Source: a virus
Reading direction: 5' to 3' (one strand)
Virus record (IMG/VR): IMGVR_UViG_3300030116_002155
Coordinates: 1 to 25,620 of that record
Length of the DNA stretch: 25,620 bases
Shown: positions 17,465 through 25,530 of the stretch, in pieces
Layout of the letters: every line of letters starts with the position of its first letter
Position numbering within the stretch: the first letter of the stretch is position 1
Position numbers and translations under genes: made by a program
Notes under the pieces: generated by a model
Seen by the model: only the letters and a program-made list of their open reading frames with translations
Database searches by the model: none
Told to the model about the DNA's origin: nothing

Positions 17465-20400
17465 ATGTTAGAATATATAGTAGATGGTCAAATTGTTGAA
17501 GTTGACCCTAAAGACAAAGAATTGTTTTTAGAAAAATATCCTAATGCTACAGAACAAAAAAGTGTAGAACCGGATTTTCAGACTCCCACAACACCGGGTG
17601 CGGTTGTGGAGGAAACTGCAGCACCCGATACGGAATCCAAATCGGAAGATATTTCTTTGGGTTTACCAGAAAAAGTTAAAAATATATATGATAATTTACC
17701 TAAACCTTTGCAATGGATAGGCAGTCAATATGCTCGAAAGGTTAGAAAAGGAGCTATAGGGGCTTTAGATTTTACTAATTTTCTTGGTGGAATAGTTGAA
17801 AGCGCGGAAGGCGCAGCAGAAACCGCTTTAACATACAGATCAGACCAATTAGTTAGATCAGGAAAAATTACACAAGAAGAACAAAACTACTTACTTAATG
17901 AAATTTCAGATGGTGCTTTTGCTCCTCTTACTGATATTTTTGATCAAACTCAAAGAGCAAGAGATGTATTAGCAGATTTTGGACAAGAAGACCCTAATAG
18001 AACTATATATGAAGAATTAGAGCAAGGTAATTTTGGTGACGCAATAGATAAGCTTGAAAATGGCTTATTGCAAGCTATTCCAAGTGTAGCTGCAGCATTT
18101 GCCGGCCCTGCTGGTATGGCTGCTATTTTTACATCTGCTACCGGTAGTAACTATAAAACAAAAGTAGATGCTGATCCTAGTAAACGAGGTGATACTGAAA
18201 CATTTGGGTGGTCTTTGGCTCAAGGAGGTGTAGAACTAGTTAGTGAAATGGTAACAAGAGGTATAGTTAAAGGATTTGGTAAAATGACTTTGGCACCTAA
18301 TACAGTTAAAAATATATATAAAGCTACTACCAAAAATTTAGCTGGTAGAATACTAACAGGAGCAGCATTAGAGGGTAGTTCGGAAGTGGGTGCTCAAGAA
18401 GTAAATAGATATTTAGATTATATATGGGATGAAGATAATGCGTTTGGTTACCAAAAAACAAATCCCGACGGGAGTATAAAATACGATGTAGGAAACATTC
18501 TTCAAAGAAGTTTTGATACATTTTTGATTAGCTCTATTGTTGGTGGTGGATTAGGAGCGGCTAGTAAAACGCCTGGCTCAAAAAGATATACAGAAGAAAG
18601 ATTAAGCCCTGTTAGATTTAAAAAAGATAATCTAAAAATAGTTGAAGAAATATCCAAATTAGAAACCGAGTATGTTACAAACCCTAATCCTATAATTGAA
18701 AATAAAATATTAGAATTACAGCAGAAAGTAATAGATAACAAACTTTTAAATGAAAGAGTTTTAAATTCTTTTGAAGATTCAGAGTTAGTAGAATATGCTA
18801 GAGATAAAATAGCTATTAGTGAAGCTAGAGATAGCTTAAATAATATTGAAGACGTTAATATTAAAAACAGTATTGAAAAAGCTATTGAACAAAAAGAACA
18901 AAAAGTAGATGCACAATATAATGACAAGCTAAGTAGGTTAATCAAAATATTAGAAAAACCAATAAAACCTGAAGGAGCTTTATTATCTGACTTTGGTATA
19001 CTTTCTGCAGCTGATAAATTAAGAGAAGTTGCATTAGATAAAGCTAAGCAAACAAAAATATCTAATGATGTACAAAAAATATATGAAGAAAAAGGCACTG
19101 AAGGGGCGTTTGAAATCATTGAAAAATTTAAACCTATAACAAATAAACTTGTAAGAAAAAGAAGGGAAGCCCCTAATTATGATGAACAACTGTTAAGAGA
19201 TGAAATTGAAACAGGTGAAAGAGGCATATTAGATTTAATAAGAGAATACAAACCAGATAGTGGCGTTCCTTTATCAGGATATATAAACAAGTTTTTACCA
19301 GCTAGGGCAATTGAAGCATCGAAAAGAGTATTAGGCGAAGAGTTTACACAAGATGTAACTGAAATAAGAGAATCAAGAATTGAATTAGATGATACTACTC
19401 AAGAAGTTTTAGATTTTGTAAGAACAGAACCTAAAGCAAAAGAACAATTAAGAGATATAGCTGGTATTACAAAAGAAAGTGTACAAAAAGATGCTACTGA
19501 AATATTGAAAGGTAAGTTGCCTGGCATAGTAGAAAAAAGTGGTAGAGATCAAAACGAAATACTAACAGCAATAAATAACGCTAGCAAATTAAAAATAAGT
19601 GATAGTGTTCTTGAAGAAATGGGTGGAAATTTTAACAATACCCAAGAACAGAATAGCAGGTTTGCAACATTTTTAGATACCAACTACGATGCAATAATAA
19701 AATCCATACCTGACGCTGTTAAAAATAAATTACCTGTATTTGAAAAAATTGATACTGGTAAAAGAGAGAAAACAAAAGAAGGCAAAAAAATATTTGAATA
19801 TAAGACGCCTACAAAAGAACAAATGCTTTCTTTTTATACAGAAGGAGGCCTTACAACTTTAAGAGCAAGAAAATTAAAACTAGCTGATATACTTGCACAA
19901 GAAATAGGTAAAGACGCTATAGCAGAAGTTTTGGCTGATGCTAATATTCAAAAAGAATTTTTAGAAAGACAAGAATTATTAGGTAAAGAAATACCACAGG
20001 ATGCAATACCAAGATTATTACAAAGAATAGATAGATTAATTGAAAGCATAGACACAAAAAGCGATGGAACATTAGCAATGGGTATATCACCTGTTTTAAT
20101 TAAAAGAGCTTTTAAAGGTGGTTTAAAAGTATTTAGAGCAACATTAAAGAAAACAAATGATTTTCAAAAAGCTTTAACTGCATTCATTAAAAAAGTAAAA
20201 ACTTATTTTAAATCTGCTGAAGAAGGTAAAATAGCTGAAGAAGTTATAAAAGAAAATGTAACTATAAATAATATTGAAAGCTTAGACCTTGATGCAATGA
20301 TTGATGAAGTTGCAAAACGTGTAAATACTAATAGAGGTATTGCATATGAAAGAGTAATATATTCCAATGCAGCTAATGTTAAAAATCCTTTATTTAAAAT

Positions 20401-23128
20401 AATTGGCGAACAAACTGAAAAAGGTGGTGCTGCCGATATACAATTTGAAATTGCTGGTAAAAGATTTGATGTAGAAGCTAAATTAGAAAGCCCGCAATAT
20501 AGTAGTATAAATGGACAATACAATTTTAATAATAAAGTTTTTACAAATTCTAAAAATACTAAAATTAGTGAAGGTTTACAAATTACATTAGACAATATAT
20601 TAGAAAAAGCAAAACCTGCACTAGATAAATATAAACAAAGAGCGACTGAATTAGGTGTTAATTTAGAAACAAGCGGTAGTAAAATGCCAATTGATATATT
20701 TAATCAATTAAAAGAAGAGGGATTACAAAATAATATTACAACTAGAGAAGTTGTTAGTCAATCAGTAATAGAAGAATTATATAATAAAAAAGATCAATAT
20801 TATATACAAATAAAAGGAAAAGGATTATATTATATAGGTAAAAACCCATTAAATTTACCTGTTCCTAAATTAGAAGGGGATGTAACAATTACATTTAGAA
20901 TAGCGAGGAGTTCAAGAGATAAAAATAACAATGTTACTCCTACTCTTAGATTTTTACCAGATGATATAAATATAACTAGTAAAAAATCTGATCATAGTAT
21001 AGATACAGCTAATGGAATAAATAAATTATTAAAGTCTGATAATATATTAGATTTAATAGCAAAACAAAAATCTATTGAAAAATATAATTCAAAAGATTTA
21101 AATAAAGATTTTAATAAGTTTTTAGAAAAATCTACGGGTATAGGCGCTCAAAAAGTATTTAGCAAGGCTAAAGCAGAGGCAAGAGCTAAAACAGTAAGAA
21201 AAGGTTTTGGTGATTATTTTGTACCGCCTGGTGCTGAAGATTTTGCTGGTTTAATGCATAAAACATTAGCCAAAGGCAAAGAAGGAGAAAAACAATTAAA
21301 GTTTTATCAAGATAATTTATATACACCATATAACGTTGCTAATGAAAACATAACACGAGAAAGAGCGGCGATGTTTGAAGATTTTAGAGCATTAAAGAAA
21401 AAATTAAGTAATGTGCCTAAAAAATTAAAAAAGCTTACTAAAGGTGGTGATTTTACAAATGACCAAGCTGTTAGAGTATACATGTGGAATAAGTTAGGTC
21501 AGAAAGTTCCTGGCTTATCTGAAACAGATTTAAAATCTTTAGTAAAAGAAGTTAGTAATGATAAAGAATTAAGTCAATTTGCTAATGAGTTATTAAATAT
21601 AACTAAAGGTGATGGGTATGTAAAACCTGAAAACAATTGGATGAGTGGTAATATAGCTACTGATTTAATGGGATTAATGAATTCAACTAAAAGAAGTAAA
21701 CATTTAGAAGTTTGGCAAAATAATGTTGATCAAATATTTAGTGAACAAAATTTAAATAAATTAGAAGCAGCTTACGGCAAAAAGTGGGTAACTAATCTAA
21801 AGAAAACTTTAGAAAGAATGAAGACTGGCATGAATAGAAAATGGGGAGGCGATGCAGTTTTGCAATCTTATTTAGATTGGGTAAATGGTTCTGTTGGTGC
21901 AATCATGTTCTTAAACACTAGATCGGCTGTGCTACAAACAATATCTAATATAAACTATTTAAACTTTAGCGACAACAACCCATTGCAAGCTGCAAAAGCA
22001 TTTGCAAATCAAAAACAATATTGGTCTGATTTTAAAACTATATTTAATTCTGATTATTTGCAAGAAAGAAGAGGTGGTAATAAAATTAATGTAAACGAAA
22101 GCGAATTAGCATTAGCTGCTGAAAAAGGTGGAATACAAGGAACAATTAGTTTATTATTAAATAAAGGGTTTATATTTACAAAAATAGCAGATAGTTTTGC
22201 TATTGCTTCAGGTGGTGCTTCAATGTACCGTAATAGAATAAATACTTATATTAAAGAAGGTTTATCTGAAAAAGAAGCTACAGAAAAAGCATTTATAGAT
22301 TTTAAAGCTATAACTGAAGAAACACAACAGTCAAGTAGACCTGATAGAATATCTGAACAACAAGCAAGTAATGCGGGTAGATTATTATTAGCATTTGCTA
22401 ATACTCCAATGCAGTACAATAGAATTATTAAAAAGAATGCCCAAGATTTAATTGCTCGTAGAGGTGATCCTAAAGAAAAAATATCTAAAATAATATATTA
22501 TAGTACAATACAAAACTTAATATTTAATGCAATGCAAAAAGCTTTATTTGCTTTAGCATTTGCAGAAGATGAGGAAGATGAGGAAGAAGTATCTAAATAC
22601 GCTTTAGTTGGAGAAGGCATGGCTGATTCATTATTAAGAGGGTCAGGTTTAACAGGTAACGCTGTGGTTGCTGTAAAAAATGTAGCTATAGATGTGGCTA
22701 GAAGATCCGGTAGACCAAGACCAAATTTTAAAGATGCAGCATGGAAAGCAGCTACTTTATCACCACCAATTAACAATAAATTAACTAAAGTGAGAGGTGC
22801 ATTATATTCATTAGATTATGTTACGCCTAGAAATATATTTGATCCATCGTTAGATAATCCAGCATTATCAGCAGGGGCGAATATAATATCCGCTACAACC
22901 AACATACCATTAGATAGAGCATTAAGAAAAGCACAAAATATAGAAGCGGCAATGAGTGATGAAGCAGAGTGGTGGCAAAGCACAGCATTATTAATGGGTT
23001 GGGGGTCATGGGAATTAGGTATGCAAAAACCAAAAAAACAATCAAAAAAGAAGACAGAAGTTCCTAAACCACTTTTTGATAAATCACAAAATATATTTAA
23101 TAAAAGAAAAAGTACAATTTTTAAATAA
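17465..23128 (+). CDS. Giant internal virion protein with PD-(D/E)XK nuclease-like motif
   Basis: At 1887 residues this is the largest gene here, probably a cargo or ejection protein delivered with the genome. Visible parts in order: an N-terminal module (1-33, IVDGQIVEVDPKDKELFLEK) of a kind I remember at the start of marine phage virion proteins; an acidic Pro/Thr/Glu linker (about 34-70), unusually GC-rich; hydrophobic Ala/Gly stretches near 200-228 and 350-365; long charged helices (about 375-560); a nuclease-like segment at about 955-1010, with E962, D991 and E1004-x-K1006, that is D-x12-E-x-K after an upstream Glu; a conserved helical region from about 1231 to 1760 (GFGDYFVPPGAEDFAGL, RSAVLQTISNINYLN at 1486, TEETQQSSRPDRISEQQAS near 1620, AFANTPMQYNRIIKKNA); and an acidic run EDEEDEEE near 1700. 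The C-terminal region matches giant virion proteins of marine phages. Length and order recall T7 gp16, but no lytic transglycosylase motif was recognised. Confidence 0.8.
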   Translation: MLEYIVDGQIVEVDPKDKELFLEKYPNATEQKSVEPDFQTPTTPGAVVEETAAPDTESKSEDISLGLPEKVKNIYDNLPKPLQWIGSQYARKVRKGAIGALDFTNFLGGIVESAEGAAETALTYRSDQLVRSGKITQEEQNYLLNEISDGAFAPLTDIFDQTQRARDVLADFGQEDPNRTIYEELEQGNFGDAIDKLENGLLQAIPSVAAAFAGPAGMAAIFTSATGSNYKTKVDADPSKRGDTETFGWSLAQGGVELVSEMVTRGIVKGFGKMTLAPNTVKNIYKATTKNLAGRILTGAALEGSSEVGAQEVNRYLDYIWDEDNAFGYQKTNPDGSIKYDVGNILQRSFDTFLISSIVGGGLGAASKTPGSKRYTEERLSPVRFKKDNLKIVEEISKLETEYVTNPNPIIENKILELQQKVIDNKLLNERVLNSFEDSELVEYARDKIAISEARDSLNNIEDVNIKNSIEKAIEQKEQKVDAQYNDKLSRLIKILEKPIKPEGALLSDFGILSAADKLREVALDKAKQTKISNDVQKIYEEKGTEGAFEIIEKFKPITNKLVRKRREAPNYDEQLLRDEIETGERGILDLIREYKPDSGVPLSGYINKFLPARAIEASKRVLGEEFTQDVTEIRESRIELDDTTQEVLDFVRTEPKAKEQLRDIAGITKESVQKDATEILKGKLPGIVEKSGRDQNEILTAINNASKLKISDSVLEEMGGNFNNTQEQNSRFATFLDTNYDAIIKSIPDAVKNKLPVFEKIDTGKREKTKEGKKIFEYKTPTKEQMLSFYTEGGLTTLRARKLKLADILAQEIGKDAIAEVLADANIQKEFLERQELLGKEIPQDAIPRLLQRIDRLIESIDTKSDGTLAMGISPVLIKRAFKGGLKVFRATLKKTNDFQKALTAFIKKVKTYFKSAEEGKIAEEVIKENVTINNIESLDLDAMIDEVAKRVNTNRGIAYERVIYSNAANVKNPLFKIIGEQTEKGGAADIQFEIAGKRFDVEAKLESPQYSSINGQYNFNNKVFTNSKNTKISEGLQITLDNILEKAKPALDKYKQRATELGVNLETSGSKMPIDIFNQLKEEGLQNNITTREVVSQSVIEELYNKKDQYYIQIKGKGLYYIGKNPLNLPVPKLEGDVTITFRIARSSRDKNNNVTPTLRFLPDDINITSKKSDHSIDTANGINKLLKSDNILDLIAKQKSIEKYNSKDLNKDFNKFLEKSTGIGAQKVFSKAKAEARAKTVRKGFGDYFVPPGAEDFAGLMHKTLAKGKEGEKQLKFYQDNLYTPYNVANENITRERAAMFEDFRALKKKLSNVPKKLKKLTKGGDFTNDQAVRVYMWNKLGQKVPGLSETDLKSLVKEVSNDKELSQFANELLNITKGDGYVKPENNWMSGNIATDLMGLMNSTKRSKHLEVWQNNVDQIFSEQNLNKLEAAYGKKWVTNLKKTLERMKTGMNRKWGGDAVLQSYLDWVNGSVGAIMFLNTRSAVLQTISNINYLNFSDNNPLQAAKAFANQKQYWSDFKTIFNSDYLQERRGGNKINVNESELALAAEKGGIQGTISLLLNKGFIFTKIADSFAIASGGASMYRNRINTYIKEGLSEKEATEKAFIDFKAITEETQQSSRPDRISEQQASNAGRLLLAFANTPMQYNRIIKKNAQDLIARRGDPKEKISKIIYYSTIQNLIFNAMQKALFALAFAEDEEDEEEVSKYALVGEGMADSLLRGSGLTGNAVVAVKNVAIDVARRSGRPRPNFKDAAWKAATLSPPINNKLTKVRGALYSLDYVTPRNIFDPSLDNPALSAGANIISATTNIPLDRALRKAQNIEAAMSDEAEWWQSTALLMGWGSWELGMQKPKKQSKKKTEVPKPLFDKSQNIFNKRKSTIFK

Positions 23129-23134
23129 ATAATT

Positions 23135-23272
23135 ATGGCAAAAGACGCGTGTTATAAAAAAGTAAAAGCAAGATATAAAGTATTCCCATCAGCATACGCT
23201 AGCGGAGCTATTGCAAAATGCAGAAAAGTTGGTGCCGCTAATTGGGGTAATAAATCAAAAAATAAAAAATAA
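23135..23272 (+). CDS. Tiny basic protein with PSAYASG motif
   Basis: A 45-residue ORF starting with ATGGCA, six bases after the giant gene, and ending in TAATG that overlaps the next start. The protein is strongly basic: nine lysines and arginines in the first 20 or so residues and a Lys-rich end. The core reads YKVFPSAYASGAIAKCRKV, followed by GAANWG. I remember this PSAYASG-x3-KCRK pattern as a small family of unknown function found in many marine phages and large algal viruses, probably annotated as a DUF; I cannot verify the number. Two cysteines (C6, C29) could bind metal or form a bridge, which is speculation. Its start context and tight coupling support a real gene despite its size. 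Confidence 0.82.
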   Translation: MAKDACYKKVKARYKVFPSAYASGAIAKCRKVGAANWGNKSKNKK

Positions 23273-23454
23273 TGAAAGGAGTACCACATTTTAAAAAAGA
23301 TGGCACAATCTATAAAGGTGCAACACATAAATCAGGTAAACAATTAATGTCTGGTAAGAAACATACTAAATCAAGTGTAAACTTATTTCATATTAATCAG
23401 TTACCTAAAAAATCATTAAATAAAGCTTATAAACAAGCAGGCTTATTAAAGTAA
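23272..23454 (+). CDS. Small basic protein of unknown function
   Basis: A 60-residue basic protein coupled to both neighbours through TAATG overlaps. It reads as a short repeat of Gly/Lys turns: GVPHFKKDGTIYKGATHKSG, then a histidine-containing stretch with MSGKKHTKSSVNLFHINQL and a helical lysine-rich end. I remember similar proteins (HFKKDGT-x-YKG at the start, KHT-x-SS-x-x-LFH) next to the PSAYASG protein in marine phages. Function unknown; high positive charge suggests contact with DNA or with the capsid interior. No signal or membrane segment. Confidence 0.78.
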   Translation: MKGVPHFKKDGTIYKGATHKSGKQLMSGKKHTKSSVNLFHINQLPKKSLNKAYKQAGLLK

Positions 23455-23741
23455 TGGCAGATCCAGTAAAAGGTACAGGTAAAAAACCTAAAGGTAGTAG
23501 CAGACGTTTGTATACAGACGAAAATCCAAAAGATACAGTTAGTATTAAATATGCCAGCGTGGCAGATGCTAATGCTACATGCAGAAAGGTTATGGGATCA
23601 AGTAAGTCTTTTGCTAGAAAAATACAGATATTAACTGTAATGGAACAAAGAGCTAGATATGGTAAGAAGCCAAGACAATCTAAGATAGCTACAGCTTGTA
23701 AAAATAAATTAAGAAAAAAACATGGCAGTAAGAAAAACTAA
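23454..23741 (+). CDS. Small basic conserved phage protein (RRLYTDENPKDT motif)
   Basis: A 95-residue Lys/Arg-rich protein whose start overlaps the previous stop by one base. The N-terminus has GTGKKPKGSSRRLYTDENPK followed by DTVSIKYASVADANATCRKV; the middle has FARKIQILTVMEQRARYGKK; the end is very basic. I remember the KPKGS-x-RRLYTDENP-x-DT-x-x-IK pattern from marine phages, and from large viruses of algae, as a conserved unknown family, always near other tiny basic genes. Two cysteines are present. Function unknown. A DNA-binding or virion-associated role is inferred from charge and from the position at the end of the structural block. Confidence 0.78.
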   Translation: MADPVKGTGKKPKGSSRRLYTDENPKDTVSIKYASVADANATCRKVMGSSKSFARKIQILTVMEQRARYGKKPRQSKIATACKNKLRKKHGSKKN

Positions 23742-24000
23742 AAAAGGAGCTCAGTTAAAACGTTGGTTCAAAGAAAAATGGATTGATGTAAGAACAGGTA
23801 AACCTTGCGGTAGACGTAAAGGTGAAAAAAGAGGTGTGCCTTATTGTAGACCAAGTAAAAGAATATCTAGCAAAACAGTTAAAACAGCAGGTGAAATGTC
23901 ACCATCAGAAAAGGCTGCAAAGATAAGAGAAAAGAAAGCATTAGGTCAACCAGCAGGTAAACCGAGAAGAGTTAAAAATGTTAAAAGAAGAAAAAAATAG
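23722..24000 (+). CDS. Small basic protein with WFKEKW and CGR/CRPS motifs
   Basis: A 92-residue protein that begins 20 bases inside the preceding gene in another frame; the ATGGCA start and A-rich upstream sequence match other starts here, so I keep this start. It reads LKRWFKEKWIDVRTGKPCGR, then a second cysteine in VPYCRPSKRISSKTVKT, GEMSPSEKAAKIREKK and a basic tail. I remember this L-x-x-WF-x-E-x-W-x-D ... CGR ... CRPS-x-R-x-S-x-KT family from phages and large DNA viruses, function unknown. Two cysteines 12 residues apart, each next to basic residues, could form a metal site only in a dimer or with the neighbours. Overlapping genes suggest coordinated, possibly stoichiometric, expression. 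Confidence 0.8.
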   Translation: MAVRKTKKGAQLKRWFKEKWIDVRTGKPCGRRKGEKRGVPYCRPSKRISSKTVKTAGEMSPSEKAAKIREKKALGQPAGKPRRVKNVKRRKK

Positions 24001-24032: not shown

Positions 24033-24314
24033 ATGGCAAAAAAAATCTCAGAAGAAACGGAAGTACAACTTGACTTAAAAACGATCGGAATGATCATTGG
24101 TGGAGCTATCGCTTTAGCTGCCACTTATTTCACTTTAACGGCTGAAATAGAGCTTGCTAAGGAGTTACCTAAACCAGATATATCAAGAACTGAATTTGAT
24201 TTAAAAGACGAATTAATTCGTTCGACAATAATTGATATAGATGAAAAGGTAGACAAAAACGCAGAAAAGCTTGAAGATATAGACGAAAAGCTTTATCAGC
24301 TAATAAAAGAATAA
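24033..24314 (+). CDS. One-pass membrane protein, holin-like or spanin-like (paralogue 1)
   Basis: A 93-residue protein: a short charged N-terminus (KKISEETEVQLDLK), one hydrophobic segment at about residues 18-36 (IGMIIGGAIALAATYFTL) followed by TAEI, then a charged, coiled-coil C-terminus with repeated Ile/Leu heptads (DIDEKVDKNAEKLEDIDEK). There is no signal-peptidase site, so it should be anchored with most of the chain on one side. It shares an ungapped 33-residue block with the gene at 24663 (V-x-LD-x-K ... FTLTAEI). Near an endolysin, such a protein is usually a holin, an antiholin or an inner-membrane spanin; the coiled coil is like a spanin or class III holin. Which of these it is cannot be told from sequence. 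Confidence 0.78.
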   Translation: MAKKISEETEVQLDLKTIGMIIGGAIALAATYFTLTAEIELAKELPKPDISRTEFDLKDELIRSTIIDIDEKVDKNAEKLEDIDEKLYQLIKE

Positions 24315-24316
24315 AT

Positions 24317-24661
24317 ATGAAAAATTTAATTACTTTAATCTTATTATTATTTACATCAATTTCATTTTCACAAGAAATGACAGTATTATACATGAACTCA
24401 TCATGGAATCAAAGAAATCATTATGCAGATGTAGATAAATTAAAAAGAGCAAAAATTTTAAAAGTAAACTTCGAGGACCAACCAGTAAGCATAAGAAAAG
24501 CAATAAGATCAGTACCTGCAATTATAGTATTAAAAGACGGTAGACCTGTGGCTACATGGCAAGCAGATTTATCTATGAAATTAAAAGTGCGCTATGAAGA
24601 CGTACAAGCCGTAATTGATGGCACGGTTGTTCCTAAATTAAGAAGAGCTTCAACAAATTAA
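24317..24661 (+). CDS. Exported thioredoxin-like protein without a CxxC site
   Basis: A 114-residue protein. Residues 1-18 form a Sec signal peptide (MKNLITLILLLFTSISFS), with likely cleavage before Gln19, a common arrangement in Bacteroidetes. The mature part has a thioredoxin-like order: strand MTVLYMNSSW, helix, strand AKILKVNFED, helix, then RSVPAIIVLKDGRPVATW, in which SVP (65-67) corresponds to the cis-proline loop and KDG to the following turn. The expected active-site CxxC is replaced by NSSWNQRN, with no cysteine anywhere in the chain, so redox activity is not possible by the normal mechanism. It lies two bases after one membrane protein gene and one base before its paralogue, in front of the endolysin. 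A structural or regulatory role in envelope disruption is inferred. I recall comparable proteins in other marine flavophage-like genomes. Confidence 0.75.
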   Translation: MKNLITLILLLFTSISFSQEMTVLYMNSSWNQRNHYADVDKLKRAKILKVNFEDQPVSIRKAIRSVPAIIVLKDGRPVATWQADLSMKLKVRYEDVQAVIDGTVVPKLRRASTN

Positions 24662-24662
24662 T

Positions 24663-24977
24663 ATGCAAGAACTTACAGAAAAATCAAAAGTATCGTTAGA
24701 TATCAAAGCGGTAATTGGTGCAGTATTTGGTATTGTATCCATTGCTGGTGTTTGGTTTACACTAACAGCTGAAATAGCACAATTACAATTAGATGTAATT
24801 AGAATGCAAGATGCCGTAGCACTTAATGAAGAATTTAGAATTAAATGGCCAAGAGGAGAAATGGGTGCTTTACCAGACGATGCCAAACAAGATTTAAGAA
24901 TAATGTATTTGCAAGATGATGTTGAAGCATTACAAGAAGTTGTTAAGAAGTTAGAAATAGACAACGCAAAAAAATAA
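24663..24977 (+). CDS. One-pass membrane protein, holin-like or spanin-like (paralogue 2)
   Basis: A 104-residue protein with the same plan as the 24033 gene: short N-terminus (MQELTEKSKVSLDIK), one hydrophobic segment at about 17-35 (VIGAVFGIVSIAGVWFTL), then TAEI and a coiled-coil C-terminal half (LQDDVEALQEVVKKLEIDN). The 33-residue block from Glu6 to Ile38 aligns without gaps to residues 7-39 of the other protein, with 14 identities by my count. The C-terminal parts differ, this one having a Pro/Gly linker (RIKWPRGEMGALPDD) before the coiled coil. It starts one base after the thioredoxin-like gene and ends six before the endolysin. Holin, antiholin or inner spanin are possible; a holin/antiholin pair is an inference from duplication. 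Confidence 0.78.
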   Translation: MQELTEKSKVSLDIKAVIGAVFGIVSIAGVWFTLTAEIAQLQLDVIRMQDAVALNEEFRIKWPRGEMGALPDDAKQDLRIMYLQDDVEALQEVVKKLEIDNAKK

Positions 24978-24983
24978 AATTAA

Positions 24984-25448
24984 ATGAAAAACATAAGCAA
25001 GCATATCTCATATAAAGAGGGTGTGTATAGCATCACTGCTTTGAGATTAGGTTTAAATAATGATCCTACAAAAACTCATTTAACTAATATGGAATTATTA
25101 GCTGAAAAGATTTTTGAACCATTAAGAAAACACGTAGGTGGACCAATTAAAATAAATTCATTTTATCGCGGACCTGAATTAAATAAAGCGATCGGCGGGA
25201 GTGCCAATTCGCAACATTGTAAAGGCCAAGCAATTGATATTGATGATGTATATGGTTATATGAGTAATGCTGATATGTATGAATATATAAAGAATAACTT
25301 ATCGTTCGATCAGATGATATGGGAATTTGGAAATTCTGATAACCCGGATTGGGTTCATGTAAGTTATGTAAATGAAGAAGCTAATAGAAACAGATGTTTA
25401 TTAGCTTATAAAGACGAAAATAATAAAACAGCTTATAAAGTAATATAG
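24984..25448 (+). CDS. Endolysin, peptidase M15 (L-Ala-D-Glu or D-Ala-type carboxy/endopeptidase) family
   Basis: Probable peptidoglycan peptide cleaving endolysin of 154 residues. Zinc ligand pattern of M15 peptidases: H78 and D85 in SQHCKGQAIDID (the S-x-H-x-x-G-x-A-x-D motif), and H125 in DWVHVSY, with E114 in QMIWEFG as the likely catalytic base. INSFYRGPELNKAIGG precedes the first motif, as in M15 proteins. No signal peptide is present, so release to the wall needs a membrane protein, consistent with the two one-pass proteins just upstream. The C-terminal about 25 residues are charged and extra. Exact bond specificity (L,D- or D,D-) cannot be read from the motif. Confidence 0.88.
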   Translation: MKNISKHISYKEGVYSITALRLGLNNDPTKTHLTNMELLAEKIFEPLRKHVGGPIKINSFYRGPELNKAIGGSANSQHCKGQAIDIDDVYGYMSNADMYEYIKNNLSFDQMIWEFGNSDNPDWVHVSYVNEEANRNRCLLAYKDENNKTAYKVI

Positions 25449-25504: not shown

Positions 25505-25530
25505 AAGGGGCCGCAAAGCCCCTTAATTAT
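25505..25530 (+). terminator. GC-rich hairpin terminator, possibly bidirectional
   Basis: AAGGGGC at 25505-25511 pairs exactly with GCCCCTT at 25518-25524 around a CGCAAA loop. On the + strand AATTATT follows; on the opposite strand the bases reached next are T-rich (complement of AAATAGAAATAAATA). It lies 56 bases after the endolysin and probably ends the late transcript; the T-rich tract on the reverse side fits a bidirectional terminator between converging units. Confidence 0.72.

Follow-up and report, generated by a model that had tools for sequence, protein, structure and literature searches.

Two adjacent genes, here called A and T, travel together in uncultured phages, with T directly after A in 95 of the 97 contig groups recovered overall from viral contigs and genome bins. 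A is predicted to be anchored in the inner membrane, and T to be an exported protein with a thioredoxin fold that has lost its chemistry. We propose that in marine phages of the Bacteroidota type A-T is an envelope module of two genes, placed among the lysis genes and serving either the envelope step or the timing of lysis, a reading to which we give about even chances; it is probably a so far undescribed aid to lysis of the host cell and not a holin/antiholin pair. The order and tight coupling of the genes, the predicted fold, the NxxN pattern of T, the lysis context and the presence of a separate holin were shown or computed.

The A-T pair and its neighbours

The window, i.e. the whole stretch of 25,620 nucleotides analysed here, derives from a 32,604-base uncultured virus record. 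Its portal protein matched best a record named 'Caudoviricetes sp.' (52.9%), followed by a Maribacter phage (47.2%) and Flavobacterium phages (43.0%), and Cellulophaga and Tenacibaculum phages were also among the 87 portal-matching records. The gene order is A, T, B and then E, in a tight operon, and the open reading frames of A and B were verified at the following coordinates:

24033..24314, + strand: A, 93 aa, single-pass inner-membrane protein, predicted N-in/C-out
24317..24661, + strand: T, 114-aa exported pseudo-thioredoxin (predicted), signal peptide at about residues 1-18
24407-24409 and 24416-24418, + strand: N31-x-x-N34 of T, counterpart of the thioredoxin active site, CxxC replaced
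24515-24517, + strand: cis-Pro P67 of T, aligned with the thioredoxin Pro in the profile alignment
24663..24977, + strand: B, 104 aa, single transmembrane (TM) segment, helical tail, conserved EFRIKWPRGEMGALPDDAKQDLRI motif; optional neighbour of A-T
24984..25448, + strand: E, 154-aa Peptidase M15 endolysin (Peptidase_M15_3, PF08291, E 7e-15; phrog_894 endolysin, E 4e-31)
25505..25524, no strand assigned: terminator-like bidirectional hairpin, by consensus match only, at the operon end before a convergent gene

By hydropathy, E has no segment above threshold, no TM and no predicted export signal. The convergent open reading frame past the hairpin is, judging from its sequence, what we take to be a ribonucleotide reductase-like gene. 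Upstream of A, several small and very basic proteins are encoded at 23135-24000, in an order partly conserved in relatives; one of them (23722-24000) matches DUF5872 (PF19197, 4e-13), and a 1887-aa protein (17465-23128) lies immediately upstream of this run.

Relatives were gathered from viral contigs fetched with T, B and A queries and from bacterial and archaeal genome bins searched with an alignment of A, the loci retained being the best 80 of 240 for A and the best 80 of 129 for B. Contigs were grouped on shared 400-mers, so that near-identical strains were merged. Four A loci at contig ends were left out of the A-T spacing counts, and groups with short flanks were set aside, leaving 57 of 95 for the lysis-context count (at least 2 kb upstream and at least 3 kb downstream) and 86 of 95 for the position of B.

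Among the viral contigs, T stood directly downstream of A in 80 of 82 contig groups and in 135 of 137 non-edge loci, most commonly with a 4-nt overlap (spacing of -4 nt, 54/135 loci). The same order was present in all 15 loci of the genome bins, which had been found independently with A. Bacteroidota figured among the bin titles (Crocinitomicaceae, Flavobacteriaceae, Flavobacteriales, Cytophagales, Sphingobacteriales, Bacteroidetes), as did Maricaulis, Woesearchaeota, Gammaproteobacteria and more; these mixed titles suggest that some bins are probably binning errors. The distances of A and T were correlated (r 0.83; partial 0.68 given E, 56 triples), and the partial correlation of T and E distances given A was 0.08 in the same triples. 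This A-T mirror-tree correlation is in part a reflection of common genome history, and the cassette may move as a single block. One relative (L001:4830-5836) carries a tandem duplication in the K4-A-T stretch, with two exact 300-nt copies 707 nt apart and an extra, C-terminally altered T, which may be a recent event or an assembly artefact.

The conserved unit is A-T, and B is optional: in the 86 well-flanked groups B lay directly after A-T in nine, directly before it in seven and elsewhere in the locus in five, and was not seen in 65, while only 25 of the 60 groups having B also had A. The initial annotation had read A, T and B as a three-part device in which T was inserted precisely between two paralogues. 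T does lie between A and B in the window, but the close fit is ordinary tight operon packing, and gene order in relatives upholds A-T and not A-T-B, which at 9/86 groups is a minority order and is ruled out as the conserved unit.

Predicted properties of A, B and T

TM and lipoprotein calls in this work are hydropathy and regex heuristics. A has a TM segment at about residues 18-36, and Lys and Arg are more numerous on its N-terminal than on its C-terminal side in 59 of 88 distinct A proteins and equally so in 19. The AF2 model (mean pLDDT 86) has helices at 15-44 and 52-92, with a break at P46/P48 after the TM helix, where both prolines are invariant in 39 aligned sequences. Cysteine was found in none of the 88 distinct proteins. 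From hydropathy, the Lys/Arg bias and the AF2 model, A is predicted to be a type II inner-membrane protein with a periplasmic helix at 52-92, the topology of the i-spanin type.

A and B, which have one hydrophobic segment apiece near residues 16-36, resemble each other over their N-terminal part. Residues 3-39 of A and 2-38 of B align by BLASTP without gaps (14 identities, ending in FTLTAEI; E 1e-8 for this single comparison). The 14 identities of the best ungapped 33-residue window were reached by none of 2000 shuffles of A (maximum 12), nor by any of 2000 shuffles in which the compositions of N-tail, TM and tail were kept apart (maximum 13). Profile-profile comparison of the two families gave a probability of 97.6 (E 3.5e-12), and phrog_20984 matches both B (5e-11) and A (0.0013). 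The claim of two paralogous membrane proteins with a shared 14/33 block is thus borne out, as homologous single-TM proteins. That of a duplication followed by divergence into a holin and an antiholin is not: similarity over the shared block is 36.5% within a genome (25 genomes) and 37.6% between genomes, and A occurs mostly without B and B without A. With within- and between-genome identity equal, a recent duplication in the lineage is ruled out. All but one of 156 sequences had their nearest neighbour in their own family, A or B. By these comparisons, A and B share an old membrane-anchor domain and are old relatives.

The B family is widespread in marine phages, pelagiphages included, with a strongly conserved EFRIKWPRGEMG-type motif (B of the window; L022, L023, L024, L025). 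Homologues occur in the marine phages HTVC027P, HTVC041P, HTVC121P and MedDCM-OCT-S30-C28 and in phrog_20984, which has no assigned function; B had no Pfam match. The homologue stands two genes before an M15 gene in HTVC027P and shortly before maturase genes in HTVC041P and HTVC121P, and further homologues are on contigs that show no lysis gene in their vicinity.

For T, an exported thioredoxin-like protein as first annotated, several approaches converge on a signal peptide and a thioredoxin fold: a profile match to a PDB thioredoxin (4.5e-7), a match to PF00085 in 24 of 54 members, and an AF2 model (core pLDDT about 90-94) that matches thioredoxins by Foldseek (1e-5) and by VIA-align (Z up to 10.2). 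Some of the longer T proteins escaped searches with a single sequence and were recovered with iterated profiles; once those below 95 aa and those lacking a start had been removed, 98 distinct T proteins remained.

In the profile alignment the W-C-G-P-C of the PDB thioredoxin faces W-N-x-x-N of T. Asn occupies both thioredoxin Cys positions in 94/98 distinct T (the exceptions being L059, L175, L179 and L183) and the second position in 96/98; the cis-Pro is present in all 98, and CxxC in none, which rules out a redox-active thioredoxin. A small residue followed by Gln ends the signal peptide in 93/98. No lipobox was found in any of the 98, and T as an o-spanin lipoprotein is likewise ruled out. 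After the start Met, conservation is highest at the cis-Pro, at both Asn and at the Gln where the signal peptide is probably cleaved. The Asn pair, the missing CxxC and the invariant cis-Pro together argue that T is a redox-dead exported binding protein, a sequence pattern that reads as that of a fold kept for binding once its chemistry was lost.

Lysis context and proposed role

The placement of these genes in a lysis region, proposed from the window, where the M15 endolysin is the gene next to them, is supported by the relatives: an endolysin was found near A-T in 49 of the 57 loci, of M15 type in 40 and Amidase_2 type in nine, and no M15 or amidase endolysin was recognised nearby in the other eight. 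The presence of two unrelated endolysin families indicates that A-T is tied to lysis and not to one enzyme. A 45-51-aa protein with the shared pattern YYP...ELNIYLL...HFR also recurs near endolysin and holin genes (L121:2778-2915, L128:7036-7173, L055:7154-7309).

A 3-TM holin-type gene was found near A-T in 26 of the 57 groups. Three tested holin seeds match GTA_holin_3TM and/or phrog_3427, and a holin-type seed from L136 matches neither. Since the 32.6-kb record of the window had no recognised holin gene, it was searched together with the records from which 12 of the loci came. In this first set of 13, which includes the closest kin of the window, a phrog_3427 holin was present in 6/6 records of at least 50 kb and 0/7 shorter ones. 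In a second set of 25 records, 17 had a holin match, among them four of the seven virus records of at least 50 kb, so that across both sets a separate 3-TM holin is encoded by 10 of the 13 relatives that reach 50 kb. It lies roughly 28-39 kb from A-T in four records. In the relative L215 the distance is about 1.3 kb, upstream, from the counterpart of the window's first large gene, a terminase-like gene close to which the window's record begins. The frequency of this separate holin in long relatives makes A and B unlikely as the main holin; the reading of either as the phage's only holin is rejected as improbable, and the initial holin assignment is not supported.

A lipoprotein candidate, a possible o-spanin, was present by regex in 16 of the 57 loci and absent in 41, including all nine of amidase type. 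Among four near-complete relatives, only G005 has a convincing lipoprotein, the regex matches in G001 and G008 being internal cysteines in doubtful open reading frames. In some relatives the gene right after the M15 endolysin belongs to a lipoprotein family (QITHVLAVTQEGDTL...; L011:4422-4811, L036:7910-8284), which may be an o-spanin or an envelope protein and was not seen in the window's record. One cassette lipoprotein searched against Pfam had no match.

Another recurrent neighbour is O, an exported family of about 390-410 aa (32 distinct proteins) found near A-T in 24 of 57 loci, often directly before A (e.g. L173:4827-5999, L036:4793-6001, L172:4763-5998). Judged by eye, its strand-rich sequence looks like that of an outer-membrane barrel. 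One member compared with Pfam and PHROG matched neither, and a search of PDB sequences with the family gave nothing up to E 5. O is missing from the window's record and from nine others of the 13 records searched.

Once a holin and an endolysin have been assigned, what is left for A-T to serve is passage of the outer membrane or timing. In the proposed mechanism, A would be anchored in the inner membrane by its one TM and extend a helical stalk into the periplasm, and T would be secreted via the Sec pathway. Keeping the fold, the cis-proline and the Asn pair at the old active site, T would act by binding and not by redox chemistry; its partner would most likely be the stalk of A, or else a host envelope component reached through A. 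Together with the separate 3-TM holin and the M15 or Amidase_2 endolysin, the pair would serve the periplasmic and outer-membrane stage of lysis or its timing, in a spanin-like or RI-like manner. B, in this picture, is related to A from further back, moves independently and has entered the cassette of some phages. We infer the binding of A and T, their periplasmic location and the lysis step served.

A more specific version, which we consider doubtful, is that A-T is a lipoprotein-free replacement of the spanins, the Asn-x-x-Asn/cis-Pro groove of T docking the stalk of A or a host or phage outer-membrane protein, e.g. O. With no lipobox in T, and a stalk of about 40 residues in A, short for bridging the periplasm, the pair is not a literal spanin.

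The main rival, because its topology is similar to that of A-T, is a timing regulator in the manner of holin T and antiholin RI of phage T4, with A as the one-TM protein with a periplasmic domain and T holding it inactive. The cleavable signal peptide suggested by the pattern in 93/98 T fits this, as do the strict A-T pairing and reading frames that usually overlap or nearly touch; we nonetheless consider it unlikely, if the least so of the rivals, as the separate 3-TM holin of most long relatives makes A improbable as the main holin, and it is thioredoxins that the model of T resembles. The 50 best matches listed by Foldseek and VIA-align include neither RI nor holin T, which excludes nothing. 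Also unlikely, and ranked after the timing regulator, is an envelope 'moron' that lies near lysis genes by chance; A and T, often in company with O, would then for instance exclude superinfecting phages or modify the host envelope. The barrel-like O in 24/57 loci and the eight loci without a recognised endolysin speak for such a pair, but endolysins of two unrelated families accompany A-T in 49/57 loci, and O is missing from most of the 13 records searched. Lastly, a holin and antiholin derived by duplication, with T as a third part, is very improbable. In its favour are the N-terminal/TM block common to A and B, the lack of another recognised holin in the window's record and the lack of a predicted export signal in E. 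Against it, that record starts near a terminase-like gene, just where L215 has its holin upstream, all long records of the first set encode a holin of their own, no B was seen in the surroundings of A-T in 65/86 groups, and A and B are no more alike within than between genomes.

Novelty and comparison with known systems

Searched by tblastn against 50,697 deposited phage records, A (from the window and one relative), T (from the window and two divergent relatives) and O had no match, so that annotation would miss the module. The BFVD structure library holds a viral protein 33% identical to T, and raw sequences thus exist in databases. Among open-licence full texts, a search that is no proof of absence, nothing was found on the module or on a phage thioredoxin-like lysis gene, and open-licence texts on Asn-substituted redox-inactive thioredoxins, judged from listings, held nothing on such a gene.

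A 2018 survey notes that spanin-less phages exist, raises the question of how they pass the outer membrane, and suggests as possible substitutes other topologies or a protein of the outer membrane (PMC6139136). A 2025 survey assigns only unimolecular spanins to Bacteroidetes phages (PMC12596118), in contrast to which the marine A-T phages mostly show no spanin lipoprotein near the cassette and carry A-T there. Flavobacterial phage isolates have a few spanins and holins annotated, and the word thioredoxin is absent from the main text of the paper describing them (PMC8776804). If the proposal is true, a lipoprotein-free A-T would be a new route to the last envelope step of lysis in marine Bacteroidota phages, and a T family tied to one membrane partner offers a clear case in which to test whether the fold of an enzyme has been turned to binding.

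B belongs to the same family as phrog_20984 and the proteins of HTVC027P, HTVC041P, HTVC121P and MedDCM-OCT-S30-C28, where neither A nor T has a match. With the thioredoxin family (PF00085) T has in common the fold, the cis-proline and the aromatic residue before the active site; unlike its members it is predicted to be exported, has NxxN for CxxC, and is encoded by a phage beside a membrane protein. The T4 holin T likewise has a one-TM topology. RI, according to PMC8385771, is an antiholin of the periplasm that binds holin T and has a cleavable signal peptide, so that both systems pair a one-TM membrane protein with a secreted periplasmic partner; they differ in the thioredoxin fold of T and in the separate 3-TM holin of most long A-T relatives. 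As in the two-component spanins such as lambda Rz/Rz1 (PMC6139136), the genes are adjacent, often overlapping and in the lysis region, and an exported partner accompanies an inner-membrane protein of type II whose helical stalk reaches into the periplasm. In contrast to these spanins, T has no lipobox (0/98) and has a folded thioredoxin domain, the stalk of A is short, and A has no cysteine (0/88), whereas some component has one in 507 of the 528 surveyed (PMC6139136).
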